64,000 nt of DNA from Subsaxibacter sp. CAU 1640 (GTDB lineage: Bacteria; Bacteroidota; Bacteroidia; Flavobacteriales; Flavobacteriaceae). Shown piece by piece: positions 3,679-54,466 of the stretch; the stretch's first letter is position 1, and every line of letters starts with the position of its first letter. The notes under the pieces are model-generated. The model ran no database searches and was not told the origin of the DNA. It saw only the letters and a program-made list of their open reading frames with translations. Location: NCBI RefSeq assembly GCF_023156585.1, contig NZ_JALNMI010000001.1, forward strand, positions 558,001 through 622,000. The letters run 5' to 3'. A program made the position numbers and the translations under genes.

Positions 3679-6462
3679 ATGAGACATCAACTATCAAAAA
3701 CCATCTTTTTTATATTTCTCACTCTCACTTCTACATATGCTTTTTGTCAAGAGGGAATCGTTTCAGGAGTTTTAAATTCAGACACAGACGGATTCCCGCT
3801 TCCTGGTGTCAATGTCATCATTAAAGGTACAACCAAAGGCACGCAAACAGATTTTGATGGTTTTTACAGCATAAAATGTCAAGTAGGTGATGTTCTGGTA
3901 TTCAGCTTTGTAGGTATGCAAAACAAAGAAGTTAAGGTGACCAAAAATATGTTCAGTGAGATATCGAACAATTTTTCGGTTCAAAAAAATGCAGTAGAGC
4001 CTATCCAAAATGATGCCTACAAAAAAGCTTTGAAAACATACAAGGATACGCTTCATTTCATCCCAACTATGGAAGGTTCTGAACGCACTTACAACAAAAA
4101 AAATTATTTTGAATATAACCGGATTAAATCGATTAAAGTAAAACCGAATGAAGTGGTTTTGGACTATTTCAATCGCGACCTACATTATGAGGTTGGGTAT
4201 ATATCTACTACTGCGTTACAATTCATAAAAAACTCAAATCTACCAAAATTACAATCTACATTCAGTCAAGGGGCCTCTCAAAACGGAGAATTGACATTCC
4301 TCGGACCTGAAACAGGGAACGTTTTTTCATATGGTCCAAAAATAGCTTCGCTAGAATTTGACGATAGTGCTTATACTTTTGACAACAACATTCTCGAAAC
4401 GTCTTTAAAAACATTCAATACTATGTTTTTTAATGTCTCTACGGACAATCTGCTCGTTGGCCTGAATATATCTCACAAAACCAATGAAGATGTTTTTGGA
4501 AGGGAGCGCAGCAAGTCAAATGATATCACTCTCAACTTTAATAACAAAGACTACCAAACAAGTAAGTTAGAGTGGGATGCATTTTTAAAATATTCAAATA
4601 AAACTGATAATCAACCGAACATCAATGGCTTTCAAAACAATGTTTTACTCAACACGTGGATTACGCCACCTAGTTTTGAAAACAGCCAAGGCGCGGTTTT
4701 GGACAATGGTTCCCAACGTAGCTTTAGCCCTAACAATTATAACAATCCTCGATGGCTTTTGGAAAACAATCGTAATTCTGAAAGTTATGATTACCTTATC
4801 GGAAGTGTTCAAAATAAGATAGATTTAGGAGATTTCAATTTAGAAAGCAATCTTAATTATAATCATTCAAAAAATGAGCAACACTTTGGATTGGTAACTC
4901 AAACCGTTGGCTTTGAAGATGGCTATTTGAGCGAGAAGGATATTCAAAAAAACAATTTAAATGGTCTAATAAAATTTGACTTTGAAAACCGCAAGAATGA
5001 TTACGAACTAAAAATCAATTCAATAGTCAATTACACCTTTGAAGACTTAAGATATCGCTTGAAAGAATCATCTGGTTTTGAAGATTTCAGTTTTTCATCA
5101 CCAGAAAACAGTACTTCCGTTTCGCATCAAATGAATCGAAATACCTTTCGACTGTTGAATCAATTCAGTTTTGAATGGAATGATGTCAATTCTGAAATCA
5201 CCTTTGGCAATAACAGTTATCTGTCTTCGCTACAAAAAAATGAGTGGTTTCTACCGAGCATTCAGTTACGCTTGAATTTGGATGATATTTTCAATATGTA
5301 TGATATCAACCATTTCAATCTCACCACATCAACATCATTTGACATCAATGATATGCCGCTGTTCTATACCAACCAAAGCCATAACAGTCTTCTATTAACA
5401 CCTTCACAAAGTTTGACTTATACAGCCAACAATGACCTTTTTCTGTCGGATGCTTTGCAACTCGAGAAAAAACAAAGTTACTCCATTGGTGCGTCCATCG
5501 GATTCAGGCTGTTTGATACATATTTTGAGTTTGATGCCAACTATTTTGAAACCGAAACCAAAGGGAGCGTTTTCCCTATAAACAATGGAGAGCAATTTTC
5601 ATTGGAAAATGTTGCTAACATCAGAAATCGTGGTTTTGAGATGAGTTTAGAAAATTCATTTTACACATCAAATGAATTTCAAATATCCTCAAAAATTGTT
5701 TTTGCCACCAATAGAACCAAAGTTCTGAAGCTTCTTGTTCCAGAAGAAAGAGTCGCCATTGCAGGATTTGCAACCATTTCAAAGAATCTCATAGTTGGGC
5801 AACCGGCAGGAATTATTATGGGTTCATCTTATGCAAGAGATGCACAAAACAATATGATTATTGATGAAACTGGCTTTCCTATTGTTTCCAATGAGCAGCA
5901 AATCATTGGTGACCCAACGCCCAATTTCACTTTTGGATTTTCAAATCAGCTTAAATGGAAACGATTCAAACTAAATTTTGTATTGGATTACCAAAATGGT
6001 GGCGATGTCTGGAATGGCACTCAAAACGTGCTCAATTATTTTGGAACTTCCCAACAGTCAGCAGAACAAAGAACCATTACCAATTTTGTGTTTCAAGGCG
6101 TTAATCAACAAGGTGACACAAATACAACTTCCGTTGATTTTTATAATCCTTCAAACGGAATGGAGTCGAATCGTTTTGTTAAATACGGATTTGATGGCGT
6201 TGCTGAAGACGCTATAGAAGATGCCAGTTACCTCAACTTAAAAACCATTGATGTTTCTTACAGTTTTGTAGGCACAAATCCAAAAGGCTTCTTTAGACAA
6301 TTTGATGTTGGGATGTATGCTCACAATCTTTTTACAGTTTCACAATTCAGAGGTGCTTCGCCCTACAGCAGTTTATATGATTCCCATTCTGGGCAAGGAT
6401 TGAATTTTTTCAATGCGCCTATGGCGACGGAAATCGGATTAACCATCACATTAAAAATATAA
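3679..6462 (+). CDS. SusC/RagA-like TonB-dependent outer-membrane barrel lacking a plug domain
   Basis: 927 residues with an N-terminal signal peptide ending near AFCQ. Residues about 27-95 form a carboxypeptidase-regulatory-like beta domain (LPGVNVIIKGTTKGTQTDFDG). In ordinary SusC proteins a TonB-box-like EVVVVGYG and a plug of about 120 residues follow. Here neither is found: after a charged linker (about 96-170) the sequence goes straight into the barrel-start region (LPKLQSTFSQGASQNGE, then SYGPKI) and runs as beta-barrel to the C-terminal TITLKI. The frame is intact, so this is not a simple frameshift. The gene directly downstream (2-base gap) encodes an A2M-like protein holding the missing type of plug. 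No SusD gene is adjacent. Substrate unknown. Confidence 0.85.
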   Translation: MRHQLSKTIFFIFLTLTSTYAFCQEGIVSGVLNSDTDGFPLPGVNVIIKGTTKGTQTDFDGFYSIKCQVGDVLVFSFVGMQNKEVKVTKNMFSEISNNFSVQKNAVEPIQNDAYKKALKTYKDTLHFIPTMEGSERTYNKKNYFEYNRIKSIKVKPNEVVLDYFNRDLHYEVGYISTTALQFIKNSNLPKLQSTFSQGASQNGELTFLGPETGNVFSYGPKIASLEFDDSAYTFDNNILETSLKTFNTMFFNVSTDNLLVGLNISHKTNEDVFGRERSKSNDITLNFNNKDYQTSKLEWDAFLKYSNKTDNQPNINGFQNNVLLNTWITPPSFENSQGAVLDNGSQRSFSPNNYNNPRWLLENNRNSESYDYLIGSVQNKIDLGDFNLESNLNYNHSKNEQHFGLVTQTVGFEDGYLSEKDIQKNNLNGLIKFDFENRKNDYELKINSIVNYTFEDLRYRLKESSGFEDFSFSSPENSTSVSHQMNRNTFRLLNQFSFEWNDVNSEITFGNNSYLSSLQKNEWFLPSIQLRLNLDDIFNMYDINHFNLTTSTSFDINDMPLFYTNQSHNSLLLTPSQSLTYTANNDLFLSDALQLEKKQSYSIGASIGFRLFDTYFEFDANYFETETKGSVFPINNGEQFSLENVANIRNRGFEMSLENSFYTSNEFQISSKIVFATNRTKVLKLLVPEERVAIAGFATISKNLIVGQPAGIIMGSSYARDAQNNMIIDETGFPIVSNEQQIIGDPTPNFTFGFSNQLKWKRFKLNFVLDYQNGGDVWNGTQNVLNYFGTSQQSAEQRTITNFVFQGVNQQGDTNTTSVDFYNPSNGMESNRFVKYGFDGVAEDAIEDASYLNLKTIDVSYSFVGTNPKGFFRQFDVGMYAHNLFTVSQFRGASPYSSLYDSHSGQGLNFFNAPMATEIGLTITLKI

Positions 6463-6464
6463 TT

Positions 6465-9400
6465 ATGAAAACATTCAAACATTACCTTTCGCTTATATTA
6501 ATAGGAAGTTTTGTGCTCATTTCTCTTGTTTCATTCAAGATAATGAACGGGTTTAATACGCCTTCAGAAAGCATCTATACGCAGACTGACAGACCTTTCT
6601 ACTTTCCTGGAGAAACCATCTGGTTTAAATCATATGTTGTTGAGCAAGACAACACGGTTTCTAATTTGAGTGACATTATGCACGCCGAACTTATTTCTCC
6701 AAAAGGCTCTGTCGTTTCTTCCTTAAATCTGTCCATCAAAGAAGGCTATTCTTATGGCGATTTTTATATTGATGAAGATTGGGTAGGAGGCATTTACACA
6801 CTTAAAGTTTACACCAACTGGATGCGGAATTATGGTGAGGAGTCTTTTTTCACAAAGAAAATTACTGTTCAAAAAGTGGTGCAACCCAATCTGTTAATGA
6901 CATTGAAATTTGAAAAGGAAGGCTACGGGAAAGCGTCAGATGTTGTGGCGAATTTTGAAGTTAAAGACCTAAAGAATTTTCCTTTGGCTGATAAAGAAAT
7001 GACTTTTGAAGTAAGCATTAAAGGCAAACCATTTCTAACAAAAAGCTTTCGCACTGACGATGAAGGCAAGGCAAACCCAAGTTTCCGATTGCCTGATGAT
7101 TTACAGTCATCTGACGTGGTGCTAAATATTCTAATTCCTTATCAAGGCACCACAGAATCCATTTCTAGAGCTGTTCCTGTGGTTTTGGATACCATTGATT
7201 TGCAATTTTTCCCAGAAAGTGGAAACCTTGTTGCAGGTACTATAAACACTGTCGCTTTTAAGGCATTGAGCGAATTTGCAAAACCTGTTGATGTCAGCGG
7301 ACAGATACTTGATGAACAGATGAATGTGGTCAGCACATTTGATAGTTTTCACGATGGAATGGGAAGTTTTGAAATCAATATTCAACCTAACACCACCTAT
7401 TACGCCAGGATTTTGCAGCCATTTCGTTCTGAACGCAATATCAAACTTCCAACAGTTCAAACATCAGGCACAAGATTTTCTTTGAATACTGATAGCCTTA
7501 AAACCAAGTTATCTATATTTTCCACCGATAACGAACGCTTATTTCTTGAGGTATCGAATGCATCAAAAGTTCTTTTGGAGAAGTCCATAAAGCCGATGAA
7601 AGATGTTGTTTTGGAGACGGAAGCATTTCCGATGGGCATCACCAAATTCACTTTGAAAAACAAACAAGGAGCTATTGTGGCCGAACGATTGGCTTTCTTG
7701 AATGCAAACAAAACTTTAAAAGTTAAAATTCAATCAGATAAGGAAGTTTACAATACCCGAGAGAAGGTGAAACTTTCAATTACAACTACTGATGAAAACA
7801 ATAACCCAATTCCATCAAACCTATCTATTTCGGTTGCGGATAATAAATTACTGTCTTTTGCAGACGATAAACAAGACCATATTCTATCGTATTTATTGCT
7901 TTCTTCAGAGTTAAAGGGCTCCATTTACAAGCCAAGTTTTTACCTCAATCCGAAAGAACCAAAATCAATCACTGCCATTGATTATTTAATGTTGACCCAC
8001 GGCTGGAGAACGTATGTTTCCAGCCCAGAAATTACTTTGGATATCGCAGAATTCTTACCTGAAAGATATTCTGTTCAAAACGGTGTTGTTTTCGATAAAA
8101 AAGGTAATCCAACCAAGGCACATTTGCTTCTTTTTGACCAATATGGCAACAAAGTATTGGTCTTTGACACAAAAGATGATGGCACATTCTCTTTTAAATT
8201 TTCTGATGATAACAACTTGATACTTATGGCTTACAGGGATGATGGAACTTCGTTAAGCATTAGGCCAACCGACGTGCTTAAAGGTCGATATTCTCCCGCT
8301 AGTACAGCGATTTCAAAACCGAACAACGAGAAGGTGAAAGAATTCTCTAAAATGGAAATTCCCGTAAATCAGCCCATCAAACAAAAGGCGGTAGCATCTG
8401 TTGCTTTGACAGAAGACGCTTCGGCACTTGATGAGGTAGTCGTGGTAGGTTATGGTATTCAAAAAAAATCAAATCTTACTGGTGCCGTTAGCGTTGTAAC
8501 TGCAGAAGAGATAATGCAACAAGGAAAGTCCATTCCAAATACACTTCAAGGTATGGTTGCTGGCGTCCAAGTGACGCAAAACAATGGAAGGCCTGGAACT
8601 GATGCGACTGTAGTCATACGTGGAGTATCTTCAATTTCTGGTAACAATGAGCCACTGATAGTTGTTGATGGTGTTCCAGTTGACCAAAAAATGCTTTCAG
8701 ACCTTGATGCCAGTCAAGTGAATTCTGTATCGATTTTAAAGGATGCCGCCGCTACTTCACTTTATGGATGTATGGCTTCAAATGGCGTTATCATTGTAAG
8801 CACAAAAAACGCTCCATACATCTATAATTACGGAAAAAAAATATTGAACAAGGCAAAATACAATAATTACGCTGTTCATCAATTCTCTTACTACAGACAA
8901 ATAAACACTTACACAGCGCAAAAGTTTTATGTTCCACAATATGATGGTTCAAACTTGCCCGAAGAGCGAACTGATTTTCGCCAGACCATTTATTGGAATC
9001 CTGTTGTGCAAACTGATGAGCAAGGCAAAGCAGAGTTGGAATTTTATAATTCGGATGCCATAACCTCATTTAAAATTACTGCTGAAGGTGTTGGATACAA
9101 CGGTTTGGTTGGCAGGCAGGAAGAAACTTATGCGACAAAAAAACTGTTGAATCTTGACTTTAAAGCGCCGAATTATATGGCACTCAACGATGTTGTGCTA
9201 TTGCCAGTAACCATTTCGAATGAAACAGATTCAAACATAAATGCCGAATTGTCCATCGAGCTTCCAAAGCATCTGAAACTTGCTGAAACTCTCGATTCAA
9301 CTATAAAAATTGCTCCAAACAGCACTTTATTAAAAACGGTGAAAGTCATTCCCATTGAAAAAACCGAAAATGCGATAATATCGATGAGTCTTCAATCTAA

Positions 9401-11036
9401 AGATTATTCAGATGTTGTCAAAAAAGAGGTGACTATTTTAAGTCCCTATTTTCCAACGCAAATGTCTCTTTCTGGTTCAGAATCGAAATTCTACAATTTC
9501 GAAATCAATAATCCTGTTAAAGGAAGCATTGAAACTAGTTTTAATATCTATACCGATGTTGTCGGAGACGTTATGAACGGAATTGAATCCCTAATAAGTC
9601 AGCCTTATGGATGTTTTGAGCAAACATCTTCAACAACTTATCCAAATATTTTGGTTTTGAAATATTTGAAAGAATCAGGAAAAAACAATCCTGAAATTGA
9701 ACGCAAGGCTATGAACTTTATCAAACAAGGCTACAACAGATTGATAGGTTTTGAAACACGTGAAGGCGGTTTTGAATGGTTCGGACATACACCACCACAC
9801 GAAACTTTGACCGCTTACGGCATTTTGGAGTTCACTGAAATGAAAGAGATTTACAGTGGTGTGGACCAAGAGATGATAGACCGAACAGTCAAATGGTTGT
9901 TGAGTAGAAAGGATGGTAAAGGTGGCTTCAAAAAAAGCGAAAAGGGATATGACAGTTTTGCCAGCTCTCCTGTAGATGTTGCGAATGCTTACATTGTTTA
10001 CGCATTAAGTGAGGCAAAACTAAAGATTGACATCGATTTGGAATTCAACACTGCCTATAACGACGCCATTAACAGCAACGACACCTACATAATGGCACTT
10101 ATGACATTGGCAAGTTACAATCTCAACAAACAACAAAAGGCAACACTTCTCCTTCAAAAAATCAAGGCGAATATAGAACGTTATGGCTTTAAAGATTTGC
10201 CAGTTGAAAATACTATTACCAGGTCTTATGGAAATGCTAAAAACATTGAGACCAATGCATTGTCGCTTTTGGCATTGATGAAAGAAGGCTCGGAAAATGT
10301 AGCACTCGTAGCGCAAGGCATTGAATACTTGGTGGCTCAAAGACAACATAATCGTTTTGGTTCTACACAATCAACTGCGATGGCCTTAAAAGCCTTGATT
10401 GAATATACCAAACAGCAAAAGCAAGTCATTATCAACAGCAGTGATTCCGTAGAATTGTCGATTAATGGAACCGCTTTGAATAGAGCCTTAAAATTGAACA
10501 ATCTTGGCGTTATAACGATTGATGGAATCTCTGATTTATTAAACTCTGGAAAGCAAAATGTCAGTGTTAGATTTACCAACCCTAAAACATCATTTCCCTA
10601 TACCTTGAATGTTAAATGGGATAACTACGTTCCTGATTCTTCAAATGAATGTTTACTTAATCTGAAAACTACAATTACCGAAAAAGACCATCGAGTTGGA
10701 GACAATGTAAGTATGTCAATTGAAGTTTCGAATGTCAGAAATGAACGTTTGGGAATGGCTACGGCAATTATCGGCATTCCTTCTGGAACAACAGCTCAAC
10801 CTTGGCAATTAAAAGAGTTATTGGAACAGAACAAATTTGCTTATTATGAGGTCTTCGACAATTATTTGGTGTTCTACTGGAAAGAATTTGGGCCTTCTGA
10901 AACCAAAAATATCCGTCTAGACCTAAAAGCTGATATTGCAGGAACCTACAAAGCTCCTGCCAGCACTGTGTATCTATATTACGGAGACGAACACAAAACT
11001 TGGATTGAGGGTTCCGACTTGGAAATATTCAAATAA
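6465..11036 (+). CDS. Alpha-2-macroglobulin-like protein with an embedded SusC-type TonB plug domain
   Basis: 1523 residues with an N-terminal hydrophobic export signal and no lipobox cysteine. Order of parts: MG2-type domain (IYTQTDRPFYFPGETIWFK, about 37-130); further MG domains and an A2M_N_2-like domain (KIQSDKEVYNTREKVKLS, about 420-500); a TonB-dependent receptor plug (about 655-782) from LDEVVVVGYG through MVAGVQVTQNNGRPG, VIRGVSS, LIVVDGVPVDQ to GVIIVSTKNA; then the A2M domain (TDFRQTIYWNPVVQTDEQGK) and a thioester domain with C1050-F-E-Q1053, the canonical CxEQ thioester. The C-terminal MG8-like part is complete. The family traps proteases through a bait-region cleavage; here the plug occupies the bait position. 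Its 2-base spacing from the plug-less SusC gene indicates co-translation. Confidence 0.9.
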   Translation: MKTFKHYLSLILIGSFVLISLVSFKIMNGFNTPSESIYTQTDRPFYFPGETIWFKSYVVEQDNTVSNLSDIMHAELISPKGSVVSSLNLSIKEGYSYGDFYIDEDWVGGIYTLKVYTNWMRNYGEESFFTKKITVQKVVQPNLLMTLKFEKEGYGKASDVVANFEVKDLKNFPLADKEMTFEVSIKGKPFLTKSFRTDDEGKANPSFRLPDDLQSSDVVLNILIPYQGTTESISRAVPVVLDTIDLQFFPESGNLVAGTINTVAFKALSEFAKPVDVSGQILDEQMNVVSTFDSFHDGMGSFEINIQPNTTYYARILQPFRSERNIKLPTVQTSGTRFSLNTDSLKTKLSIFSTDNERLFLEVSNASKVLLEKSIKPMKDVVLETEAFPMGITKFTLKNKQGAIVAERLAFLNANKTLKVKIQSDKEVYNTREKVKLSITTTDENNNPIPSNLSISVADNKLLSFADDKQDHILSYLLLSSELKGSIYKPSFYLNPKEPKSITAIDYLMLTHGWRTYVSSPEITLDIAEFLPERYSVQNGVVFDKKGNPTKAHLLLFDQYGNKVLVFDTKDDGTFSFKFSDDNNLILMAYRDDGTSLSIRPTDVLKGRYSPASTAISKPNNEKVKEFSKMEIPVNQPIKQKAVASVALTEDASALDEVVVVGYGIQKKSNLTGAVSVVTAEEIMQQGKSIPNTLQGMVAGVQVTQNNGRPGTDATVVIRGVSSISGNNEPLIVVDGVPVDQKMLSDLDASQVNSVSILKDAAATSLYGCMASNGVIIVSTKNAPYIYNYGKKILNKAKYNNYAVHQFSYYRQINTYTAQKFYVPQYDGSNLPEERTDFRQTIYWNPVVQTDEQGKAELEFYNSDAITSFKITAEGVGYNGLVGRQEETYATKKLLNLDFKAPNYMALNDVVLLPVTISNETDSNINAELSIELPKHLKLAETLDSTIKIAPNSTLLKTVKVIPIEKTENAIISMSLQSKDYSDVVKKEVTILSPYFPTQMSLSGSESKFYNFEINNPVKGSIETSFNIYTDVVGDVMNGIESLISQPYGCFEQTSSTTYPNILVLKYLKESGKNNPEIERKAMNFIKQGYNRLIGFETREGGFEWFGHTPPHETLTAYGILEFTEMKEIYSGVDQEMIDRTVKWLLSRKDGKGGFKKSEKGYDSFASSPVDVANAYIVYALSEAKLKIDIDLEFNTAYNDAINSNDTYIMALMTLASYNLNKQQKATLLLQKIKANIERYGFKDLPVENTITRSYGNAKNIETNALSLLALMKEGSENVALVAQGIEYLVAQRQHNRFGSTQSTAMALKALIEYTKQQKQVIINSSDSVELSINGTALNRALKLNNLGVITIDGISDLLNSGKQNVSVRFTNPKTSFPYTLNVKWDNYVPDSSNECLLNLKTTITEKDHRVGDNVSMSIEVSNVRNERLGMATAIIGIPSGTTAQPWQLKELLEQNKFAYYEVFDNYLVFYWKEFGPSETKNIRLDLKADIAGTYKAPASTVYLYYGDEHKTWIEGSDLEIFK

Positions 11037-12213: not shown

Positions 12214-15200
12214 ATGATTAAACAGATCTATCTGCTTGTACTTTTTTTTATGGCTTCGGCAGTTGTTAGTTCACAAACAACAGATTTGGCGGTGGTGGTT
12301 GAAGCACAGGATTTAAATGGCACAGGTGTTTCTCAAGTTCAAATTTATCAAGAATTTCAATATATAATCACCATTATAAATTCAGGAAATACCGTCACAA
12401 ACTCAACATTTTCACAAACATTAAACCAGAACGTCACTGTCATTTCCTACACCTCTCAAAACAACTCGGGAGGTGCAAGTGATGTGACCAACATTACTCT
12501 CAATGGAACAACTTTAACAGGGAATATTCAAAATTTGCCAAATACTTCAAGTGTTCAAGTAAAGGTTGTTGTGAAAGCGCCACAAGTTTTGGGAGGCATA
12601 GCGACTTCGGTGTCTGTCTCACCACCACAAGGCACTCAAGACGCCAATCCTTCCAACAATCAATCTATTATTTCTATTGATGTTGTAGATGTGATCATTG
12701 ATTTCACTGTAGAACATTCACAAATATCTCCAGTTCAGGGAACAGGAATCAGTGCCTGGAACGATTTGGTCACCTATGAATTCACAATAACCAATAATAG
12801 TATTATCACTTATCCATTAGCTGGTTTTTCAGGCAATTTGGAATTGGTCACCAGTGCTGATTATGGGAAACCTGTTGTGCAATTAGAAGCCATTCAATGC
12901 ATTGGTGGAACAAATGGGGTAAATTGCCCTGATGTTTCTGCAGTTACTGGCCCACAAGTTATCCTTACCTCTACCCAATCTGTATTCACGTTTGGCGCAC
13001 AAATAGATTTTCCACCTAATGCCAGTTTGACATTTCAGATAACTTATCGCTATTTGGAGCCTCGTTGCGGCATTGAACTACAACCCATGAGTGTGAACAG
13101 TTTTGTGAGCATTGATTTGCAGCACGACAACATTTCTTCAAATGACTCAAACTATGTTTTGACTAATTTGTTGATGGCAGAATTATGTGAATTCACAGAC
13201 ATTTGCATTCAGACCATTCAGACAAATCCATCTGTTGGAACATTCATAAATTGGAACGAGGAAGTGACTTTCGAAACTACAGTATGCAATAGTGGGCCAT
13301 TGGAAGCTCCTATTCGATTTTATTTGCAGAACCTTTCTCTCGGAATACCTTGGGATATCATATCCATAGAATGTATTGGAACAACAGGAGCTATTTCGTG
13401 CAACGATATTATATTGAATGATGAAGGTCAATTTTGGAATACAAATGATTTTACAATGCCTGTTGGAGCGACGATTACCATCAGGTCCGTAATTATTTTT
13501 CTTGAACCTGGTTGTTCTTCTACCCAAAACAACAATTCGGGACATGTAAGAAGTGGGACCAATATATTGACTACAAGTATCATTGACAGCAATCTCAACA
13601 ATAATTTTGAAAGTGATTATCTGACTTTACCTCCTGGCCAACCTTGTCCTTCAACTGATTTGTCGGTCAACAAAGTACAGATTGAACCCATTTTACCTGA
13701 AGGAGGAAGCGACCAAGAACCCACTGCTTGGGGTCCAGTTACTTATGAAATTACAGTCTACAACAATGGAGTGTTGGATACTGAAATACAATTGTATGAT
13801 TATATTCCGCAAGGCGCTAACCCATTGGTTGAAGGAGCTTTGGTCTCTGTAGAATGTGTTTCAACCACCGGAACTGCCCAATGTTTTTCGCTTGAACATT
13901 TATATGTTGGCGTATTATTGGATGGCGTCGTAGAAAATGGATTGTTGGATACGTTTTGGGAAATTTTGCCTGAGGACCATTGGCAGCTTCCAGCGCAAAG
14001 TTCAGTAACTTTTAGAGTTGTAGTTGATTGGTTTCCCGAATGTTCAGAGAGTGCGATTCCTGCAACAAATAGTGTGCGTGTTAATCATGCGAGTGCTTCT
14101 GTTACAGATCCAAATAGCACAAACAACCGCTCTACTGAAATAACTTATTTTGCTCCATGCGTCGATTTGGTTGTTCAAACTTATCCACAATTTACTGCAG
14201 TTTTTGTAGATCAAGCATTCGATTGGATTATTGATATTAGCAACAGCGCCACCAGTTCAAATGCAGTGAATATTGACCTTGAAAGTATTTTGGATCCTAA
14301 TTTTGTCATAACAGGAACACCTACTTGTCAAATAGTTACTGGAAATGCTACATGTGTCAATTCATTTACCGTTACAGGCACAACGGTTACGTCGACCATC
14401 CCGCATATGCAGGCAAACTCTAGTGTAAGAATCAGGATTCCAGTTACAGCACCAAATTTTGGAGGAGCTTTCAATAATACTGCCAATGCTTTTCCTAATA
14501 CCGAATACAATGAGGAGTTGACTCCCGAAACAAATACTTCCATAAGTAATGTGCAAGTCATTGCGCCAAGATTGATGAAAAGCTTTTCACCAGAAACTAT
14601 TTATGTTGGGGAAGAATCCACGTTGACTTTTACTATAAGTAATTTGGCATCAAATCCTTCTCAAAATAACATCTCATTTACAGATTATCTGCCTGCAGGA
14701 TTAACTCTTACTGGTCAACCAAATTGGGTAAATAGTAATGGTTGTACCGCAACGTTTCTGGGAGTTTCAGGTGATGATTTTGTTGGTGTCACCGATTTAG
14801 TCTTTCCTCAAGGAACAGCTACATGTTCGTTTTCAGTTACTGTGACTTCAAACAGTGTTGGCCAGTATATAAATGCTGATGAAAATTTTTCTGATCAAAT
14901 AAATATTGATACGTCTCAAGCTTTTGCAGTTTTGAATGTGATAGAAGACACAACCAACGTTGATATCGAGGTTATTAAAAATGTTTCTCCTGAAGAAGCG
15001 AATCTGGGAGACGAAGTAGAGTTCTCCATTACAATAACCAATATTGGTACTACCCAAGCAACAGATGTTATCATTTATGACAGCCTTCCGATGGGTTATG
15101 AATATGTAAATTCGATAGTTTCGAACGGGTTTTATAGTATTGTCAATAACGAATGGAGCATCCCACTATTAGATGCCAACCAATCAGAAACTCTTACTGT

Positions 15201-15600
15201 GACAGCCAAAATTATTTCTTCAAACAATTTGCTGAATTCTGCTTTTCTTCAAGATTTAAATGAAGTTGATCGCGATGAAACAAACAATGAAGATTCGGCC
15301 GAAGTAATGATTGGTAACTGTTTAAAAATCCCTCAAGGATTTTCTCCGACAAACGATGGTATGAATGACGTGTTTTTTATTCCATGCATTGAAAATTTTC
15401 CAAATAACAAATTGAAAATTTTCAATAGATTGGGTGTTCAAGTTTATGAAGCCCAAAATTATCAAAACACATGGGACGGCAAAGCTAATATGGGTTTTCC
15501 TAAAATTTCACAACGGCTTCCAGTAGGAACTTATTATTACATAATGGAAATTGCAGAATTTCCTGAAGCAATGGTAGGTTGGGTGTATCTCAACTATTAG
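12214..15600 (+). CDS. Large secreted surface protein with DUF11-like repeats and a T9SS type B C-terminal domain
   Basis: 1128 residues with a signal peptide (cleavage near VVSSQ). About seven diverged beta-sandwich repeats of the DUF11/CARDB type follow, each starting with a pattern such as TDLSVNKVQI or VDIEVIKNVSP and an internal YEFTITN / YEITVYN / FSITITN strand. The last about 90 residues form the gliding-motility-associated C-terminal domain (IPQGFSPTNDGMNDVFFIP, then LKIFNRLGVQVYE and NTWDGKA), the type B sorting signal of type IX secretion. The protein should therefore cross the outer membrane and be surface-bound or released. Its target is unknown; an adhesive or stalk-like role is a guess. 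Its stop codon overlaps that of the converging next gene. Confidence 0.88.
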   Translation: MIKQIYLLVLFFMASAVVSSQTTDLAVVVEAQDLNGTGVSQVQIYQEFQYIITIINSGNTVTNSTFSQTLNQNVTVISYTSQNNSGGASDVTNITLNGTTLTGNIQNLPNTSSVQVKVVVKAPQVLGGIATSVSVSPPQGTQDANPSNNQSIISIDVVDVIIDFTVEHSQISPVQGTGISAWNDLVTYEFTITNNSIITYPLAGFSGNLELVTSADYGKPVVQLEAIQCIGGTNGVNCPDVSAVTGPQVILTSTQSVFTFGAQIDFPPNASLTFQITYRYLEPRCGIELQPMSVNSFVSIDLQHDNISSNDSNYVLTNLLMAELCEFTDICIQTIQTNPSVGTFINWNEEVTFETTVCNSGPLEAPIRFYLQNLSLGIPWDIISIECIGTTGAISCNDIILNDEGQFWNTNDFTMPVGATITIRSVIIFLEPGCSSTQNNNSGHVRSGTNILTTSIIDSNLNNNFESDYLTLPPGQPCPSTDLSVNKVQIEPILPEGGSDQEPTAWGPVTYEITVYNNGVLDTEIQLYDYIPQGANPLVEGALVSVECVSTTGTAQCFSLEHLYVGVLLDGVVENGLLDTFWEILPEDHWQLPAQSSVTFRVVVDWFPECSESAIPATNSVRVNHASASVTDPNSTNNRSTEITYFAPCVDLVVQTYPQFTAVFVDQAFDWIIDISNSATSSNAVNIDLESILDPNFVITGTPTCQIVTGNATCVNSFTVTGTTVTSTIPHMQANSSVRIRIPVTAPNFGGAFNNTANAFPNTEYNEELTPETNTSISNVQVIAPRLMKSFSPETIYVGEESTLTFTISNLASNPSQNNISFTDYLPAGLTLTGQPNWVNSNGCTATFLGVSGDDFVGVTDLVFPQGTATCSFSVTVTSNSVGQYINADENFSDQINIDTSQAFAVLNVIEDTTNVDIEVIKNVSPEEANLGDEVEFSITITNIGTTQATDVIIYDSLPMGYEYVNSIVSNGFYSIVNNEWSIPLLDANQSETLTVTAKIISSNNLLNSAFLQDLNEVDRDETNNEDSAEVMIGNCLKIPQGFSPTNDGMNDVFFIPCIENFPNNKLKIFNRLGVQVYEAQNYQNTWDGKANMGFPKISQRLPVGTYYYIMEIAEFPEAMVGWVYLNY

Positions 15601-21038: not shown

Positions 21039-23084
21039 ATGAAGAAATTTTTACTCTCTACTGCTATTTGTTTAGCATCTTACGCTCTGAATGCACAGAG
21101 CTATGATTCGTGTTCAGACGCACTTGCGTCTACCACAATCACCGCCGGAACTTTTCATGTAGGAACTTTAAATGGTGATATGCCCCCAAGTTTTTGCGAT
21201 GGAGGGAATGGCAACAACGTTACTGCTGGCGAATGGATAAAATATATTCCAACGGATGATTTTTCTGTCACTGTTAGTTCAGACCTTTCCGTTAATGGCG
21301 ACAAAGACACAAGGTTTCACGTATTTACTGGAACCTGCGGTTCATTGACTTGTGTTTCAGGTGATGATGATTCAGGAACTTTCACCGGTAGCAATGGCAA
21401 CTCATATCTTTCAAGAGCCACTTTCGATGTTTTTTCTGGACAGACCTACTATATTGTGTGGGACAACAAATGGTCTAATAGCAGTGATTTTGACTTCACT
21501 CTGGTTGAGGATGAGTCCGTGGCTCCCGAAGATTCTCCTATAACATTTACTCAATCAAGTATTCCTGCCACTGGTTCTGATAGAGCTATTGTAGATATGA
21601 ATGGAGACTTTTTAGATGATTTGGTTTCAATTAGTCAAACAAACATCAATATTAATTATCAATTATCTACAGGAGGATTTAATAATGTAAATATCGCGAC
21701 TACAGCGGCCACCTATCAACCGTCATGGAGCCTGGCTGCCGGTGATTGGGATGGAAACGGTTATAATGACTTATTATATGGAGATGGAAATGGTGTGACA
21801 TTTATGAAAGCTAATTCTACTGGGACTGCTTTTACTCAAATATCTGGACCTGAAGATGTGTTTTCACAGCGCTCAAATTTTGTTGACATAAACAATGATG
21901 GTTTTTTAGATGCATTTGTATGCCATGATGTCGCCCCAAGCGTATCTTATGTCAATGATGGGTCCAATAATCTTATTTTTGAAAACACAAACGGATTAGG
22001 AAACTACGCTACAGGTGGAAATTATGGATCTGTTTGGATTGACTTTGACAATGACGGTGATATCGATATGTTTATGGCTAAATGTGGTGGTAATGAAGCT
22101 CGAAGAACAAATCAACTTTATAGAAACAACGGAAATGGAACCTACACTGAAATAGGAGCTTCTGCTGGATTAGCTGATATAATCCAGACATGGTCTTCGG
22201 CTTGGGGAGATTTTGATAACGATGGAGACATGGATGTCTATGTCGGCTCGAGTACTGGCTATGATCATAAACTTATGAGAAATAATGGTGACAATACGTT
22301 TACCAATGTCACCTCGACAGCTAATATTGGTACCGCTGAAATTGGTCATGAAAATGTACCTGGTGATTTTGATAACGATGGCAATCTCGACGTTTACTCC
22401 AACGGTTCGATTCTATTTGGAAACGGTGATTTAACGTTTACAGTAAATAATTCCCTTACCATTCCAGATATAGGCTGTACAGGAGATTTCAACAACGACG
22501 GCTTTTTAGACTTCTTTTATGGAAGTATTTTTACTAATAGTGGCAACAGTAATAATTGGATTAAAATTGCGACTGTAGGTCAAACTGGCCCAGGTTATAG
22601 CAATATTAATGGTATTGGTGCCCGTGTAGAAATAAGCACAGATTCTGGGATCCAAATTCGAGATGTAAGAAGCGGTGAAGGTTTCAGATTCATGCACAGC
22701 TTAAATACTCATTTTGGCATTGGCACTAATACGTCCATCAATTATGTAAAAGTTACTTGGCCTTCAGGTATTGTTGATAATATCATTAATCCTAATATCA
22801 ATGAACTTTTAGTAATTAATGAAGGTGCGACATTGAGTTTGAATGACACTTTAGTGGACGATTTGATTTTATATCCAAACCCGACAAAATCAGTTCTGAA
22901 TTTAAACTCTTCACAACTATTATCAGATGCCATTTATACTGTTTTTGATTTGAATGGAAGAAGAGTATTAAATTCTAAATTGACCAATAACGTTATTGAC
23001 GTTTCTGAATTGAGCTCTGGCAACTATATTTTGAGATTGATGTCTGGCAATTCTATAAAAACGCAGAAATTTATAAAGCAATAA
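21039..23084 (+). CDS. Secreted FG-GAP repeat / ASPIC-UnbV protein with T9SS type A signal, copy 1
   Basis: 681 residues. After the signal peptide (SYALNAQ) a beta domain of about 140 residues is followed by repeats holding calcium-loop motifs DxDxDG: DWDGNGYND, DINNDGFLD, DFDNDGDID, DFDNDGDMD, DFDNDGNLD, DFNNDGFLD. These suggest a beta-propeller. An ASPIC/UnbV-type domain follows (GIGARVEI, IRDVRSGEGFRFMHS, VTWPSGIVD). The last about 75 residues are a T9SS type A sorting domain (LYPNPTKSVLNL, VFDLNGRRV, LRLMSG..KTQKFIKQ). The protein should be surface-exposed or released. It is paired with the diheme cytochrome upstream and closed by a terminator. Confidence 0.87.
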   Translation: MKKFLLSTAICLASYALNAQSYDSCSDALASTTITAGTFHVGTLNGDMPPSFCDGGNGNNVTAGEWIKYIPTDDFSVTVSSDLSVNGDKDTRFHVFTGTCGSLTCVSGDDDSGTFTGSNGNSYLSRATFDVFSGQTYYIVWDNKWSNSSDFDFTLVEDESVAPEDSPITFTQSSIPATGSDRAIVDMNGDFLDDLVSISQTNININYQLSTGGFNNVNIATTAATYQPSWSLAAGDWDGNGYNDLLYGDGNGVTFMKANSTGTAFTQISGPEDVFSQRSNFVDINNDGFLDAFVCHDVAPSVSYVNDGSNNLIFENTNGLGNYATGGNYGSVWIDFDNDGDIDMFMAKCGGNEARRTNQLYRNNGNGTYTEIGASAGLADIIQTWSSAWGDFDNDGDMDVYVGSSTGYDHKLMRNNGDNTFTNVTSTANIGTAEIGHENVPGDFDNDGNLDVYSNGSILFGNGDLTFTVNNSLTIPDIGCTGDFNNDGFLDFFYGSIFTNSGNSNNWIKIATVGQTGPGYSNINGIGARVEISTDSGIQIRDVRSGEGFRFMHSLNTHFGIGTNTSINYVKVTWPSGIVDNIINPNINELLVINEGATLSLNDTLVDDLILYPNPTKSVLNLNSSQLLSDAIYTVFDLNGRRVLNSKLTNNVIDVSELSSGNYILRLMSGNSIKTQKFIKQ

Positions 23085-23103
23085 ATAGTTTTACATTTAT
23101 ATT

Positions 23104-23137
23104 AAAAAACCCACCAGATCATGGTGGGTTTTTTTTA
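23104..23137 (+). terminator. Rho-independent terminator after the first cytochrome/FG-GAP unit
   Basis: Nine-base stem AACCCACCA / TGGTGGGTT with loop GATCA, followed by a run of T. Confidence 0.92.
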
Positions 23138-23288
23138 CATAATCTTAATATTTGGTAGGAACTTTAACGATTAAGTTGTTATATGAGGAAAAACAACATG
23201 AAAAACGCTTGTTTTATTGTCAAATTTTCATAAATTTCCATCCCCTAAAATCTTCTGAACTAAAATTCTATACAAAGAATAAAACATT

Positions 23289-24374
23289 TTGACGGTTAGA
23301 AAAGTTTTACATCTAGTTGCTTTCATAGCTCTTTTTAACATGATGAGCTCATGTAATTCCGGAGACGATTCGTATGTTGAAGAACCTTCATCTCCAGTTA
23401 ACTTTGAATTGAATGAAGTGCCTTATGATTCTCTGTCTAAATATGGTTTTTTTAACGGTCAATTGAAAGATTTAGAACCCGCTGTTGGCGTTCTGCCTTA
23501 TGATTTGAATTCTTCCCTTTTCAGTGATTATGCGCACAAAAAGCGCTTTGTCTGGATGCCCAATGATGTGAAGGCAACCTACGATAATGATTACAGTCCA
23601 CTTAATTTTCCAACCGGAGCTGTATTGATTAAAAATTTTTATTACGAAAATATTCAGCCATCCAATACCACCAAAATTTTGGAAACTAGACTCATGTACA
23701 AAAAGGATGATGGCTGGCATTTTGCAAAATATGTTTGGAATGAAGAACAAACGGAAGCCACGTTCACAAACGCCGGTTCTTTCGTAAATTTGACATGGAT
23801 TGAAGGCAACCAAACGAAAACCACCAATTACCGCATTCCGTCACAAGCAGAATGCTTTACTTGCCACAATAAATTTGGAACTCCCCTCCCGATTGGTCCT
23901 AAGCCTCAAAATTTAAATAGAAATTATTCTTACACAGAAGGCGCAAGGAATCAATTAAGCAAGTGGATTAGTGAAGGTTACCTTGATGCTAACATCCCTC
24001 AATCCATTGCATCTACTGTTGCTTGGAACGATGAATCTCAGCCTTTAGAAATGCGCGTTAGATCATATTTAGATATTAACTGTGGGCATTGTCATTCTGA
24101 AGAAAGTTATTGTGAGTATAGGCCAATGCGGTTTGCATTTCATGAAAATTCAGACGACACCAATAAAGGCATTTGTGTAGATCCTGAAACGCAGATTGCT
24201 CCATATACAAAAATTATCGTTCCACATAATTCTGATCTTTCCCTTCTCCATTTTCGAATAAGTACAACTGAAGAACAGTATAGAATGCCACTTCTGGGCA
24301 GAACCATCAAACATGATGAAGGAGTCCGTTTAATCGAGGAATGGATTAACTCTTTAACTAATGAATGTAATTAA
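23289..24374 (+). CDS. SO2930-family diheme c-type cytochrome lipoprotein, copy 2
   Basis: 361 residues. A TTG at 23289 is taken as start because it gives a complete lipoprotein signal (VAFIALFNMMSSC, C22); the first in-frame ATG is too close to the cysteine. Haem motifs are C189-FTC-H193 and C265-GHC-H269. It matches copy 1 along its length (SDYAHKKRFVWMP, VLIKNFYYENIQP, KPQNLNRNYSY, SYLDINCGHCHS, GRTIKHDEGV). The two copies are clearly paralogues, and each precedes an FG-GAP/ASPIC gene. Confidence 0.85.
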   Translation: MTVRKVLHLVAFIALFNMMSSCNSGDDSYVEEPSSPVNFELNEVPYDSLSKYGFFNGQLKDLEPAVGVLPYDLNSSLFSDYAHKKRFVWMPNDVKATYDNDYSPLNFPTGAVLIKNFYYENIQPSNTTKILETRLMYKKDDGWHFAKYVWNEEQTEATFTNAGSFVNLTWIEGNQTKTTNYRIPSQAECFTCHNKFGTPLPIGPKPQNLNRNYSYTEGARNQLSKWISEGYLDANIPQSIASTVAWNDESQPLEMRVRSYLDINCGHCHSEESYCEYRPMRFAFHENSDDTNKGICVDPETQIAPYTKIIVPHNSDLSLLHFRISTTEEQYRMPLLGRTIKHDEGVRLIEEWINSLTNECN

Positions 24375-24388
24375 TTAACTATACTCCT

Positions 24389-26788
24389 ATGAAAAAAATT
24401 ACCTTACTACTATTTTTTGTATTCGCCTTAAAAAGCCTGAATGCGCAGGTCTTGAATCAACCGGCTAACTGGCCTAATTCCAATTGGTCGATAACAGGAA
24501 GTTATCTAACAGACACAAATGTTTTTGAAGCAAACCCTACTACATCTTCGAATTTTGCATATGATGATGACGATGCAGGAAATGGGCATTCTGACCTAAT
24601 TGCGGCAGAATCCCCCGTAATCGATTTGACGGCAGCGCACACAGCTGGTGAAACTTGGATATCTTTCAACAGTCTATATGTTTATAATAGAGTCAGTGAA
24701 ATATTGATAGTTCAGTATTGGGATACATCAACTGGTAGTTGGCTGAATTGGGGTGCTGAACTATCTGGAACTACTGGTGCTCCAAATAATAATTATTGTA
24801 GTGGGAATAAGGTTAGTGCTGTTGTAGCGCCTTTGAATATTGCTCCTTTCAATGCCTCTCAATTAAGTGGTTTTAGGTATCGAATTTTATATGATGATGA
24901 TGGCAACTGGGGTTGGGGGTTTTGTTTAGATTCTCCAACAGTTACCTCTCAAACACCACCTGCCTGTCCCAATATTACCGGTTTAAGCGTCTCCAATGTA
25001 AATGTTAATACCGCAGATGTCTCTTGGCAAGCAGGTAGCGACGAGAGCTTATGGGAAGTGGTTGTTCAGTCTCCTGGTGGCGGTATACCAACAGGTTCAG
25101 GTGAAGAAACCTTTGACAATAATCCTCATCAACTTACTGGTCTGGCACAAAATACACCATATGAGGTATATGTAAGAGGAAATTGTGGTGGTGGAGATTT
25201 TAGCAATTGGATTGGCCCCGTAAATTTTACAACACTCGCACCTTCGAGGGTAAATTTTATAAGACAAAATATATCGGTCGCTGGAAGTTATGATCTTACC
25301 GTAGTAGATATGAACGGAGACTTTTTAGATGACATTGTTTCGGCCTCATCCAATAATGTCAACGTTTACTATCAACAAGATGGTGGCGGTTTTACCCATG
25401 TTTCATTGCCAACTCCAAGTGCCAACTATTTACCAACCTGGAGCATGGCTGCGGCAGATTTTGATCGAAACGGATATACAGATTTATTATACGGGAGTGG
25501 AAGTGGGGTGACTTTTATGAAAGCCAATGCAACTGGAACAGGATTTACTCAAGTATCGAGTAGTGAGTATGTTTTTTCTCAAAGGTCAAACTTTGCTGAC
25601 ATCAACAATGATGGCCATTTAGATGCTTTTGTATGCCATGATGTTCAACCAAATGTTTATTATATCAATGACGGTAATGGTAATTTCACTTTCAATCAAG
25701 GCGGATTAGGTGATTACCCTTCAGGAGGCAACTACGGCTCTATTTGGATTGATTACGACAATGATAGAGATTTAGATATGTTCATTGCAAAATGTGGTGG
25801 AGAAACAGCCAGAAGAACCAATGTCATGCTAACAAACAATGGAAACGGAACTTTTACCGAAAATGCAGCTGCTTTAGGTTTAGCCGACCCTATGCAAACT
25901 TGGTCATCTACATGGGGAGATTATGACAACGATGGAGATATGGATGTTTTCATCGGTGGTAGTTCAGATCCTCACAAGCTCATGAGAAATAATGGCGACA
26001 ACACATTTACAAACGTCACTTCGACTTCTGGAATTAGTGTTGTTACAACTTTAGGCCATGAAAGTGTAAGCTACGATTTTGATAATGATGGAAACCTTGA
26101 CGTTGCTTGTAATGGTGTGATTCTCTATGGAAACGGTGATTTGACTTTTACAGAAGTTGATTCAGATGAATTGAACTATAAAAATGGTTCTTTCGGAGAC
26201 CTAAATAATGATGGTTTTGTAGATGCCTATTACAATGGTGTTATTTATATGAATGGTACAACTCCAAATAATTGGGTGAAAATCAATACTGTCGGTGTGC
26301 AAAGCAACGTCAATGGTATAGGTGCTAGAGTTGAACTTTACACGTCAGCAGGTGTTCAAATTAGGGACGTAAGAAGTGGTGAAGGATTCGAGTTCATGAG
26401 TTCATTAAATACTCACTTTGGAATCGGAACACAAACAGCGATCAACAACATAATCATTTATTGGCCTTCAGGTATCGTTGATAATGTTATTGATCCTGAC
26501 ATCAATACCACCCATACAATCGTGGAAGGTGCAACTTTAAATGTTTCCGACCCGTCATTGGAAGGCGTTATTATTCATCCAAACCCTGTAAAGAACATCT
26601 TGCAAATTTCAACTCCTGCTAGTTTATCAGGTAAAATTGCAACCATTTTTGATGTGAATGGAAAACGTGTATTGAATTTGAAATTAGAGAATGATTCCAT
26701 AGATGTATCGTCACTTCAAAGTGGAATTTATTTCTTAAGATTGGAATCAAACGGAACATCAGTTCAAAAGAAGTTCATCAAAAATTAA
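24389..26788 (+). CDS. Secreted FG-GAP repeat / ASPIC-UnbV protein with fibronectin III domain and T9SS type A signal, copy 2
   Basis: 799 residues. Signal peptide (LKSLNAQ), then an about 160-residue beta domain different from that of copy 1, a fibronectin type III-like domain (about 193-285, NITGLSVSNVNVNTADVSW to PVNFTT), then the same repeat/ASPIC/T9SS arrangement as copy 1: DFDRNGYTD, DINNDGHLD, DYDNDRDLD, DYDNDGDMD, DFDNDGNLD, DLNNDGFVD; IRDVRSGEGFEFMSS; WPSGIVDNV; and HPNPVKNIL to KKFIKN. The N terminus has diverged by domain swap while the C-terminal 500 residues stay close to copy 1. Its own terminator follows. Confidence 0.87.
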   Translation: MKKITLLLFFVFALKSLNAQVLNQPANWPNSNWSITGSYLTDTNVFEANPTTSSNFAYDDDDAGNGHSDLIAAESPVIDLTAAHTAGETWISFNSLYVYNRVSEILIVQYWDTSTGSWLNWGAELSGTTGAPNNNYCSGNKVSAVVAPLNIAPFNASQLSGFRYRILYDDDGNWGWGFCLDSPTVTSQTPPACPNITGLSVSNVNVNTADVSWQAGSDESLWEVVVQSPGGGIPTGSGEETFDNNPHQLTGLAQNTPYEVYVRGNCGGGDFSNWIGPVNFTTLAPSRVNFIRQNISVAGSYDLTVVDMNGDFLDDIVSASSNNVNVYYQQDGGGFTHVSLPTPSANYLPTWSMAAADFDRNGYTDLLYGSGSGVTFMKANATGTGFTQVSSSEYVFSQRSNFADINNDGHLDAFVCHDVQPNVYYINDGNGNFTFNQGGLGDYPSGGNYGSIWIDYDNDRDLDMFIAKCGGETARRTNVMLTNNGNGTFTENAAALGLADPMQTWSSTWGDYDNDGDMDVFIGGSSDPHKLMRNNGDNTFTNVTSTSGISVVTTLGHESVSYDFDNDGNLDVACNGVILYGNGDLTFTEVDSDELNYKNGSFGDLNNDGFVDAYYNGVIYMNGTTPNNWVKINTVGVQSNVNGIGARVELYTSAGVQIRDVRSGEGFEFMSSLNTHFGIGTQTAINNIIIYWPSGIVDNVIDPDINTTHTIVEGATLNVSDPSLEGVIIHPNPVKNILQISTPASLSGKIATIFDVNGKRVLNLKLENDSIDVSSLQSGIYFLRLESNGTSVQKKFIKN

Positions 26789-39688: not shown

Positions 39689-41227
39689 ATGGTATCAATA
39701 AAAGGCACATTGGACATCGAATCGTTTCGTCAAGTGGTATTTGATGGACAATCAATTGAAATAGATGAGAAAACTAATATCGTTGTTCAAAAAAGCTTTG
39801 ATTTTTTAAAATCTTTTTCAGAAAACAAGGTTATCTATGGAGTGAATACTGGTTTTGGCCCAATGGCGCAGTACAAAATCAAGGATTCTGAACGTATTCA
39901 ACTTCAATACAATCTAATTCGTAGCCACTCTTCTGGAACGGGAAACATCATTCCTCCACTATATGTTAAGGCTGCAATGTTGGCTCGCCTCAATACATTG
40001 TCACTGGGAAAATCTGGGGTTCATAGTTCCGTTATTGAGTTGATGGCTCAACTTATCAATAAAAATATAACTCCTGTCATTTATGAACACGGAGGCGTTG
40101 GTGCGAGTGGCGATTTGGTGCAGTTGGCGCATTTGGCATTAACACTCATTGGCGAAGGAGAGGTTTTTTATAAAGGTGAAAGGCGAGTGACAAAAAAGGT
40201 TTTTGAAGCCGAAGGTTTACAGCCCATCAAAGTTGAGCTTCGTGAAGGTTTGGCGTTGATGAATGGCACTTCGGTAATGACTGGAATAGGAATTGTAAAT
40301 ACCATACAAACCAGACGTCTTCTAGATTGGATGATTGTTTGTTCATCGGCCATCAGCGAAATTGTGCAAGCTTTTGACGACCATTTATCTTTTGAATTGA
40401 ATGAATCCAAGCAACATTTAGGACAGCGAAAAATTGCTGAACAAATGCGAGAACATCTTAACGATAGTGCTCGCACTCGAAAACGCGAACATCATCTGTA
40501 TGCAGACACTAAAAATGTATCGGTTTTTGAGGATAAAGTACAAGAATATTATTCATTGCGCTGTGTGCCTCAAATTTTAGGGCCGATTTTGGACACTTTG
40601 AATACTGTCGAAAGGATTTTGGTAGAGGAAATCAATTCTGCCAATGACAATCCGATTGTAGATGTCGAGAATAAAAATGTCTATCACGGCGGAAATTTTC
40701 ACGGTGATTATGTATCCCTTGAAATGGATAAGTTGAAATTGGTGGTGACAAAAATGAGTATGCTTGCCGAACGACAACTCAATTATTTATTGAATCCGAA
40801 GTTGAATAACGTATTGCCTGCCTTTGTAAATCTTGGCAAATTGGGCCTAAATTTTGGAATGCAAGGTGTGCAATTTACTGCCACCTCAACAACGGCAGAA
40901 AACCAGATGCTTTCAAATTCGATGTACGTGCACAGCATTCCCAACAACAATGACAATCAGGATATTGTGAGTATGGGAACCAATGCGGCATTGATTACCA
41001 AAAAAGTGATTGAAAATTGTTTTGAAGTAGTCGCCATCGAGTTGATGACTATTGTTCAAGCTATTGACTATTTGGATGACAATGAAAGTTTATCTTCTAA
41101 AACGAGAAAGGTTTATGAAGATATCCGTGAGTTATTTCCAAAATTCAAAGAGGATGAAGTGATGTATCCTTATGTCAACAAAATCAAGGAATTTTTGATG
41201 TCAAACGAAAACAAGAAAGTCCGATGA
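39689..41227 (+). CDS. Tyrosine ammonia-lyase (HAL/PAL superfamily)
   Basis: 512 residues. Eliminates ammonia from tyrosine to give 4-coumarate, the aryl starter of flexirubins. The MIO prosthetic group forms from A139-S140-G141 in HGGVGASGDLVQLAHL. VIYGVNTGFGPMAQYKIKDS (tyrosine loop), RSHSSGTG (78-85), LREGLALMNGTS and TATSTTAENQMLSN are all typical. The whole sequence is strikingly like the characterised Flavobacterium johnsoniae TAL as I remember it, which favours tyrosine over histidine, as does the pigment context. First gene of an 18-gene plus-strand run; its end overlaps the next gene by 4 bases. Confidence 0.93.
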   Translation: MVSIKGTLDIESFRQVVFDGQSIEIDEKTNIVVQKSFDFLKSFSENKVIYGVNTGFGPMAQYKIKDSERIQLQYNLIRSHSSGTGNIIPPLYVKAAMLARLNTLSLGKSGVHSSVIELMAQLINKNITPVIYEHGGVGASGDLVQLAHLALTLIGEGEVFYKGERRVTKKVFEAEGLQPIKVELREGLALMNGTSVMTGIGIVNTIQTRRLLDWMIVCSSAISEIVQAFDDHLSFELNESKQHLGQRKIAEQMREHLNDSARTRKREHHLYADTKNVSVFEDKVQEYYSLRCVPQILGPILDTLNTVERILVEEINSANDNPIVDVENKNVYHGGNFHGDYVSLEMDKLKLVVTKMSMLAERQLNYLLNPKLNNVLPAFVNLGKLGLNFGMQGVQFTATSTTAENQMLSNSMYVHSIPNNNDNQDIVSMGTNAALITKKVIENCFEVVAIELMTIVQAIDYLDDNESLSSKTRKVYEDIRELFPKFKEDEVMYPYVNKIKEFLMSNENKKVR

Positions 41228-41958: not shown

Positions 41959-42030
41959 TAGATTTACCTTAAATTTACCCTTACATTTTAGTTAATCGCT
42001 TACCTAATAAGCATAATTTCAATCGCATCA

Positions 42031-42912: not shown

Positions 42913-43354
42913 GAATTTACTTGAAAACCCAATTTTGGAACTTGAAACCATCAAGCAGTTCTTGCCTCATCGTGAGCCGATGCTAATGGTAGATGGTTTG
43001 CTATATTTTGATGGTACCAAAGCGATTTCTAAATTGACTATATTGGATTCAAATATATTCGTTGAAGACAATTTGTTTCTTGAAGCCGGATTGATTGAGA
43101 ATATGGCGCAAACCGCTGCTTTGTTGACGGGCTACAAACATCAATCCGAAAACCTGCCTGTCAAAGAAGGTTTTATTGCAGCCATAAAGAATTTAAAGAT
43201 TGAAGCCTTGCCAAACGTCAATGATATTGTTGAAACGGAAGTTACTGTTACATACAAAGTGGCAACCATGACGATGGTCAATCTTTCATCAAAAGTGAAA
43301 GGTGAAATTGTAGCAACCGCCGAAATGACCTTGGTTTTAAAAGAAGATGAATGA
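42902..43354 (+). CDS. Hot-dog dehydratase (ApeP/FabZ-like 3-hydroxyacyl-ACP dehydratase)
   Basis: 150 residues from the ATG at 42902, overlapping the acyltransferase by 11 bases. The hot-dog core FLPHREPMLMVDGLL with the catalytic histidine region, then EAGLIENMAQTAALLTG with the expected glutamate, is the ApeP/FabZ pattern. It should dehydrate 3-hydroxyacyl intermediates to build the conjugated polyene. An ATG at 42887 gives five more residues, but they lie deeper in the acyltransferase frame. Confidence 0.85.
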   Translation: MPNKNLLENPILELETIKQFLPHREPMLMVDGLLYFDGTKAISKLTILDSNIFVEDNLFLEAGLIENMAQTAALLTGYKHQSENLPVKEGFIAAIKNLKIEALPNVNDIVETEVTVTYKVATMTMVNLSSKVKGEIVATAEMTLVLKEDE

Positions 43355-45972: not shown

Positions 45973-45974
45973 TA

Positions 45975-46589: not shown

Positions 46590-46594
46590 GCACA

Positions 46595-50437: not shown

Positions 50438-50439
50438 CA

Positions 50440-50811: not shown

Positions 50812-50829
50812 ATCCCACGAACTGCTGCA

Positions 50830-54463: not shown

Positions 54464-54466
54464 CTT

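Follow-up and report, generated by a model that had tools for sequence, protein, structure and literature searches.

The window, a 64,000-nt stretch of the genome of Subsaxibacter sp. CAU 1640, carries two open reading frames on the same strand, at 3679-6462 (927 aa) and 6465-11036 (1523 aa), which encode an outer-membrane barrel protein of SusC type and an alpha-2-macroglobulin (A2M)-like protein (Table 1). The spacing of only 2 nt between the barrel gene and the A2M gene is consistent with translational coupling.

Table 1. Features of the barrel/A2M-plug locus, with positions in the window and the basis of each assignment.
Feature	Position	Strand	Basis
Plug-less SusC-type outer-membrane barrel protein, 927 aa	3679..6462	+	TIGR04056 profile 274-980, no Plug; AF2 22 strands; 5fq6 chain 164-984
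CarboxypepD_reg-like domain, N-terminal extension, residues 28-106	3760..3996	+	PF13715 1.3e-14
Linker, residues 107-168, replacing Ton box and plug; characteristic of the plugless family	3997..4182	+	AF2 confidence low at 94-130
22-strand barrel, residues 169-926	4183..6459	+	DSSP on AF2 model; polar/apolar face alternation; Foldseek best matches SusC 5fq6/5t3r
Intergenic gap, 2 nt	6463..6464	+	Relatives typically 2-6 nt
A2M-like protein with inserted SusC plug, 1523 aa	6465..11036	+	Profile and structure searches
N-terminal export signal of the A2M, without lipobox	6465..6554	+	No T9SS C-terminal sorting domain at the opposite end
MG-domain ring including MG2, residues 35-605	6567..8279	+	PF01835; AF2 pLDDT mostly 75-95; Foldseek to C3/A2M/CD109
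Ton box DEVVVVG, residues 656-662, at the head of the plug	8430..8450	+	Consensus of 73 A2M plugs; cf. Bt1763 Ton box DEVVVTG (PMC7782687)
SusC-type plug domain, residues 655-785, at the bait-region position	8427..8819	+	PF07715 3.8e-18; profile match to BT_2264 5-172, BT1763 88-238
Post-plug linker, residues 786-836, basic	8820..8972	+	Conserved in Flavobacteriaceae
A2M domain, residues 841-930	8985..9254	+	PF00207
Thioester domain, residues 1028-1314	9546..10406	+	PF07678 8.6e-36
Thioester motif CFEQ, residues 1050-1053	9612..9623	+	Invariant among the homologues listed
C-terminal A2M receptor-type MG domain, residues 1430-1511, weak match	10752..10997	+	PF07677 0.0016, just under cut-off

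Profile searches of the 927-aa protein identified an export signal, the CarboxypepD_reg domain and a SusC barrel, with the main match to TIGR04056 (SusC/RagA) restricted to profile positions 274-980, and Pfam returned no Plug domain in this protein even at E=10. Its TIGR04056 score of 164 bits lies below the curated cut-off of 368, the other half of the match being held by the A2M (189.6 bits). In the AlphaFold2 (AF2) model, which was computed from an alignment of 64 rows and has a mean pLDDT of 88.5, DSSP assigned 22 long strands from residue 169 onwards with alternating polar and apolar faces, and strand 1 is preceded only by the regulatory domain and a linker of low confidence. The Pfam search and the model together rule out a degenerate or hidden plug in the linker of the barrel. 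Foldseek returned SusC proteins as the best matches of the model (5fq6, E about 1e-46), and the target-normalised score was higher for the plug-missing SusC structures 5t3r and 6zlu (0.67-0.68) than for 6zlt, the open plugged state of the same protein as the plug-missing comparison structure (0.58), although the targets also differ in length. Conservation was nearly equal on the lumen and lipid faces of the barrel (0.44 vs 0.46) and is uninformative on plug contact. The model is a confident prediction of an empty 22-strand SusC barrel, as the earlier note had read from the letters when it described a regulatory domain and a barrel in one protein with no plug; the normal plug that would have spoken against its proposal appears neither in Pfam nor in the model.

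Barrels of this kind vary somewhat among relatives. Those of Dokdonia and one Aquimarina (loci L213, L214, L216, L232, and L236) are about 130 residues shorter (780-817 aa) and their first strands match weakly, and a barrel protein from Chitinophaga gave no Pfam domain match at all, the regulatory domain being gone as well, with the pairing nevertheless kept.

The claim that a full SusC plug with its Ton box resides in the A2M protein 2 nt downstream was likewise borne out. Besides MG2, the A2M domain, the thioester domain (8.6e-36), and a CFEQ thioester, the 1523-aa protein contains Plug PF07715 at residues 668-775 (3.8e-18), between the MG ring and the A2M domain, and its residues 635-830 match TIGR04056 positions 58-248 (1e-55). 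Mapped with family profiles onto a single solved chain, that of BT_2264 (5fq6), the A2M plug and the 927-aa barrel tile it with nearly no overlap, covering 5-172 and 164-984, respectively. The plug core and the Ton box are conserved across 73 A2M plugs as they are in SusC proteins, where the Ton box lies ahead of the plug, transport depends on TonB, the plug is able to exit the barrel, and plug-free structures exist; the Ton box of Bt1763, DEVVVTG, was established by mutation (PMC7782687). AF2 modelling of A2M residues 1-1012 produced confident MG domains, which Foldseek matched to C3, A2M and CD109, and low confidence in the plug region (below 50 at residues 620-727 and about 46-65 at 730-800), so that the model gives no positive evidence for a plug fold. 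The low values may stem from the small alignment, of 61 rows, or from a plug that needs a surrounding barrel to fold.

Linkers of about 50 residues flank the plug on each side, and at the same interval the plugless A2M homologues carry a long low-complexity linker rich in Ala, Lys and Glu. The bait region of E. coli A2M (ECAM) sits in a disordered stretch of MG8 (PMC4498604) and, by an alignment offset that is approximate, maps within the linkers around the A2M plug. Judged from these alignments, the plug is located at the A2M bait position, a point on which the earlier note had not remarked. The A2M has no lipobox, and a T9SS C-terminal sorting domain was not matched in any of six A2Ms, while the 1128-aa neighbour in the window does match. 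In known receptors both plug ends face the periplasm. Because of these three features the A2M is most likely periplasmic, and its body should hang below the barrel. Of the placements that the earlier note had offered, the periplasmic one is thus favoured and outward threading of the A2M into the barrel has become less likely. A related possibility is that the pair serves export or surface assembly, with the barrel as an exit route or anchor for the A2M and the plug as its docking part, and with the A2M ending at or through the outer membrane. The operon pairing of the two genes would suit such a role, as would the finding that the plug-bearing Oar is needed for protease secretion in Myxococcus (PMC6434023). 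We consider it improbable, as the A2M body would remain inside once the plug is seated and the protein lacks a T9SS tail and a lipobox.

We scanned GTDB genome contigs for A2M-plug genes and retained 80 loci. Six of them begin at a contig end. In each of the other 74, where the contig covers the upstream side, the A2M-plug gene directly follows a plugless barrel gene (780-1062 aa), usually at a gap of 2-6 nt; none of these 74 barrel proteins has a Plug domain. The carriers belong to Flavobacteriaceae, Chitinophagaceae, and Saprospiraceae and include Winogradskyella, Psychroserpens, Aquimarina, Dokdonia, Leeuwenhoekiella, Chitinophaga, Niastella, and one Saprospiraceae MAG; the pair is present in many marine and soil Bacteroidota. 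In one of the 74 loci (L198, an Algicola MAG) the A2M-plug gene is in two frames (882 and 701 aa) beside an intact barrel gene. An annotation or frameshift artefact is ruled out because the split recurs at 74 loci whose reading frames lie a few nt apart, and a recent mobile insertion or chance fusion in a single strain because it occurs in several families with a single barrel clade.

In the genome surveys, the barrel adjoins 11 of 12 A2M-plug genes (nine in the family, G551, and G750), the exception being G558. The barrel-specific linker occurs among 199 family genomes in exactly the nine that carry an A2M-plug gene, plus a fragment, truncated where its contig stops, in one genome of 81% completeness. 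At the syntenic site of a sister species, a congeneric genome, the flanking genes are kept and both genes of the pair are absent. In the vicinity of the 60 related A2Ms that have no plug, neither a plugless nor a full barrel was found within the loci retrieved. Plug presence and barrel neighbourhood are associated at a Fisher p of about 2e-12; the counts include another three plugless A2Ms, of which two are distant, and the loci are related and hence not independent. The pairing is not due to chance, and it is not unique to this genome, the two outcomes of a genome survey that would have weighed against the proposal of the earlier note.

The two genes are the only unit conserved across all loci. 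No SusD-like lipoprotein lies beside the pair, the two weak matches in two of the 80 loci not adjoining it, and neither a third conserved partner nor conserved degradative or uptake genes were found across the loci. These results bear on the possibility that the pair is an import receptor, which takes in a peptide or protein and in which the A2M-plug protein acts mainly as a periplasmic receiving or holding protein with no role as a defence trap, the plug still closing the barrel in trans. The nearest full-length SusC relatives do adjoin genes for SusD-like importer lipoproteins, and the closest solved barrel, BT_2264, comes from a SusCD complex that was reported to bind oligopeptides (PMC7782687). 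Nevertheless, neither a SusD-type lid nor conserved degradative or uptake genes accompany the pair, and an invariant thioester would be odd for a reusable carrier, so that we regard this possibility as rather unlikely.

Additional genes were noticed upstream of the pair. In G157 (L104:2677-4093) these encode a 170-aa sigma factor of ECF type, a membrane protein of 144 aa, and a small secreted protein (156 aa) that is formed by two copies of a SusC plug's C-terminal half (VDG...YG..GVV.ITTK). In G750 (L276), the plugless barrel gene and the A2M-plug gene are immediately preceded by a gene for a 771-aa protein with a TonB plug.

Plugs also occur in A2M-like proteins outside the pair. The earlier note had mentioned MG2-plug fusions from Bacteroidota, and these are indeed widespread, as shorter proteins (about 800-1350 aa) in which MG2, a plug-like segment, and the start of the A2M domain follow in the same order as here; unlike the A2M-plug protein, they lack a thioester domain, and their plug is often partial or diverged. 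No plugless barrel was seen near them in 20 loci (L140-L159), one of which has a barrel gene cut by the edge, which implies that a plug can serve without a plugless barrel. Moreover, G558 (L097:3-4403) encodes an A2M with intact plug and Ton box that has no barrel gene next to it on the upstream side, and its short contig ends downstream; elsewhere in this assembly of 1,670 contigs, only ordinary SusC-like matches were found. Together with the low AF2 confidence of the plug, these cases would agree with a pair in which no trans plugging takes place, the barrel acting as a porin, either open or closed by loops, and the A2M plug serving just to bind TonB or to dock, perhaps with other SusC proteins. 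However, this leaves unexplained why a plug-free barrel accompanies the A2M plug in 74/74 readable loci and is absent beside 60 plugless A2Ms, and also the high correlation between barrel and MG ring described below, and we deem it very improbable.

In a quick tree against 16 full-length SusC proteins, the only outgroup rows, the plugless barrels form one clade. A tree of the A2Ms computed without the plug columns requires two changes in plug presence and places the plug-bearing A2M of G558 as sister to the plugless A2M clade, at its base. It is therefore possible that plug and barrel were lost in the ancestor of the plugless group, a gain being the alternative. Pairwise distances of barrel and MG ring correlate at 0.91 (partial correlation 0.60), as would be expected for partners that are inherited and change together. 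The correlation between plug and barrel distances is lower, at 0.53, and lends no support to specific plug-barrel co-evolution. The weaker value could point to A2M plugs having been converted by other SusC genes, but binned distances suggest saturation of a conserved domain.

To the best of our knowledge, plug and barrel are part of one chain in every known TonB-dependent receptor. The pair shares with the SusC/RagA transporters of SusCD systems (BT_2264, BT1763, RagA) the 22-strand barrel, the CarboxypepD_reg extension, and a plug with the Ton box DEVVV(V)G, and differs from them in that plug and Ton box are carried by a separate polypeptide and no SusD partner adjoins. From thioester A2Ms of the E. 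coli YfhM/ECAM type, with which it has in common the MG ring, the A2M domain, the CxEQ thioester domain, and a bait position before the A2M domain, the A2M-plug protein is distinguished by the SusC plug at that position and by an outer-membrane barrel, not PBP1c, as the product of the partner gene. The plugless Bacteroidota relatives (about 1450-1500 aa, mostly 35-42% identity) are full-length members of the family with the same thioester, but have a low-complexity linker for the plug and no barrel neighbour in 60 loci. The Oar transporter of Myxococcus resembles the pair as a Ton-driven barrel tied to a protease-related partner, whereas its plug is in cis and its partner is a secreted protease rather than a trap; a plug-free Oar variant reaches the outer membrane at a lower level and is functionless (PMC6434023). 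Of other TonB-dependent barrels, FhuA is stable without its plug (PMC9581862), and plugs can be force-opened by TonB (PMC5413942).

Conserved pairing, reciprocal absence, co-evolution of the partners, Ton box conservation, and the empty-barrel model strongly support the reciprocal split, the plug in trans, and the two-piece gate that the earlier note had proposed. We infer, at a probability of about 0.62, that the pair constitutes an outer-membrane channel of two components, which is gated by TonB and receives its plug in trans from a periplasmic thioester trap; the supply of the plug in trans, the core of this reading, is well supported by the inferences above. The 927-aa protein would sit in the outer membrane as an empty SusC barrel, and the A2M in the periplasm would insert its plug domain from below, so that the pore is closed by the plug of another polypeptide. 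Such physical docking appears probable to us. Since the Ton box is part of the A2M plug, TonB would then most likely pull on this plug as it does in ordinary SusC proteins, and we consider this action of TonB fairly likely. Withdrawal, unfolding, or cleavage of the plug may in turn be sensed by the A2M body, which seems plausible because the plug is spliced in at the bait position; the body would then swing its thioester domain onto the incoming molecule, giving a guarded gate backed by a covalent trap. A coupling of plug movement or cleavage to the firing of the trap is speculative, and the fuller proposition that the plug is gate and trigger at once, with an attack or a TonB pull on it opening the pore and firing the thioester at the entering molecule, is more doubtful still.

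A2Ms are triggered when the continuity of the bait region is lost, upon which the bait retracts from a channel, and a paper on human A2M asks if the family can also be fired by something besides proteolysis or reduction (PMC9352918); the pair would be a natural candidate. If the proposed mechanism holds, it would represent a naturally evolved A2M trigger besides cleavage of a free bait loop, and at the same time a natural TonB-type receptor plugged in trans. The extent to which plugs leave the barrel during transport is debated, and a plug that is naturally a separate protein would make plug exchange, exit, and re-entry directly testable. The pair also ties a nutrient-receptor fold to a protease trap of the innate-immunity type in bacteria, and hints at how a periplasmic A2M is stationed at a pore. 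Each half is a recognisable homologue, of a TonB receptor and of an A2M; their combined mode of action, if demonstrated, would be of a new kind. A search of open-licence PMC papers, in which absence is weak evidence, returned no description of such a barrel/A2M-plug pair, which points to the two-part gate of an empty pore and a plug-bearing A2M being undescribed in that literature.

Further genes in the window surround the pair. The 1128-aa neighbour (12214-15600) is a DUF11-repeat protein with a T9SS type B sorting domain, and a similar protein is found downstream of the pair in several relatives. Two FG-GAP/ASPIC-UnbV proteins that end in T9SS sorting tails are encoded at 21039-26788, and the region 39689-57023 contains genes for an aromatic amino acid lyase, ketoacyl synthases, an MMPL transporter, and acyltransferase-like proteins, a set which we take to resemble a flexirubin/aryl-polyene pigment cluster.
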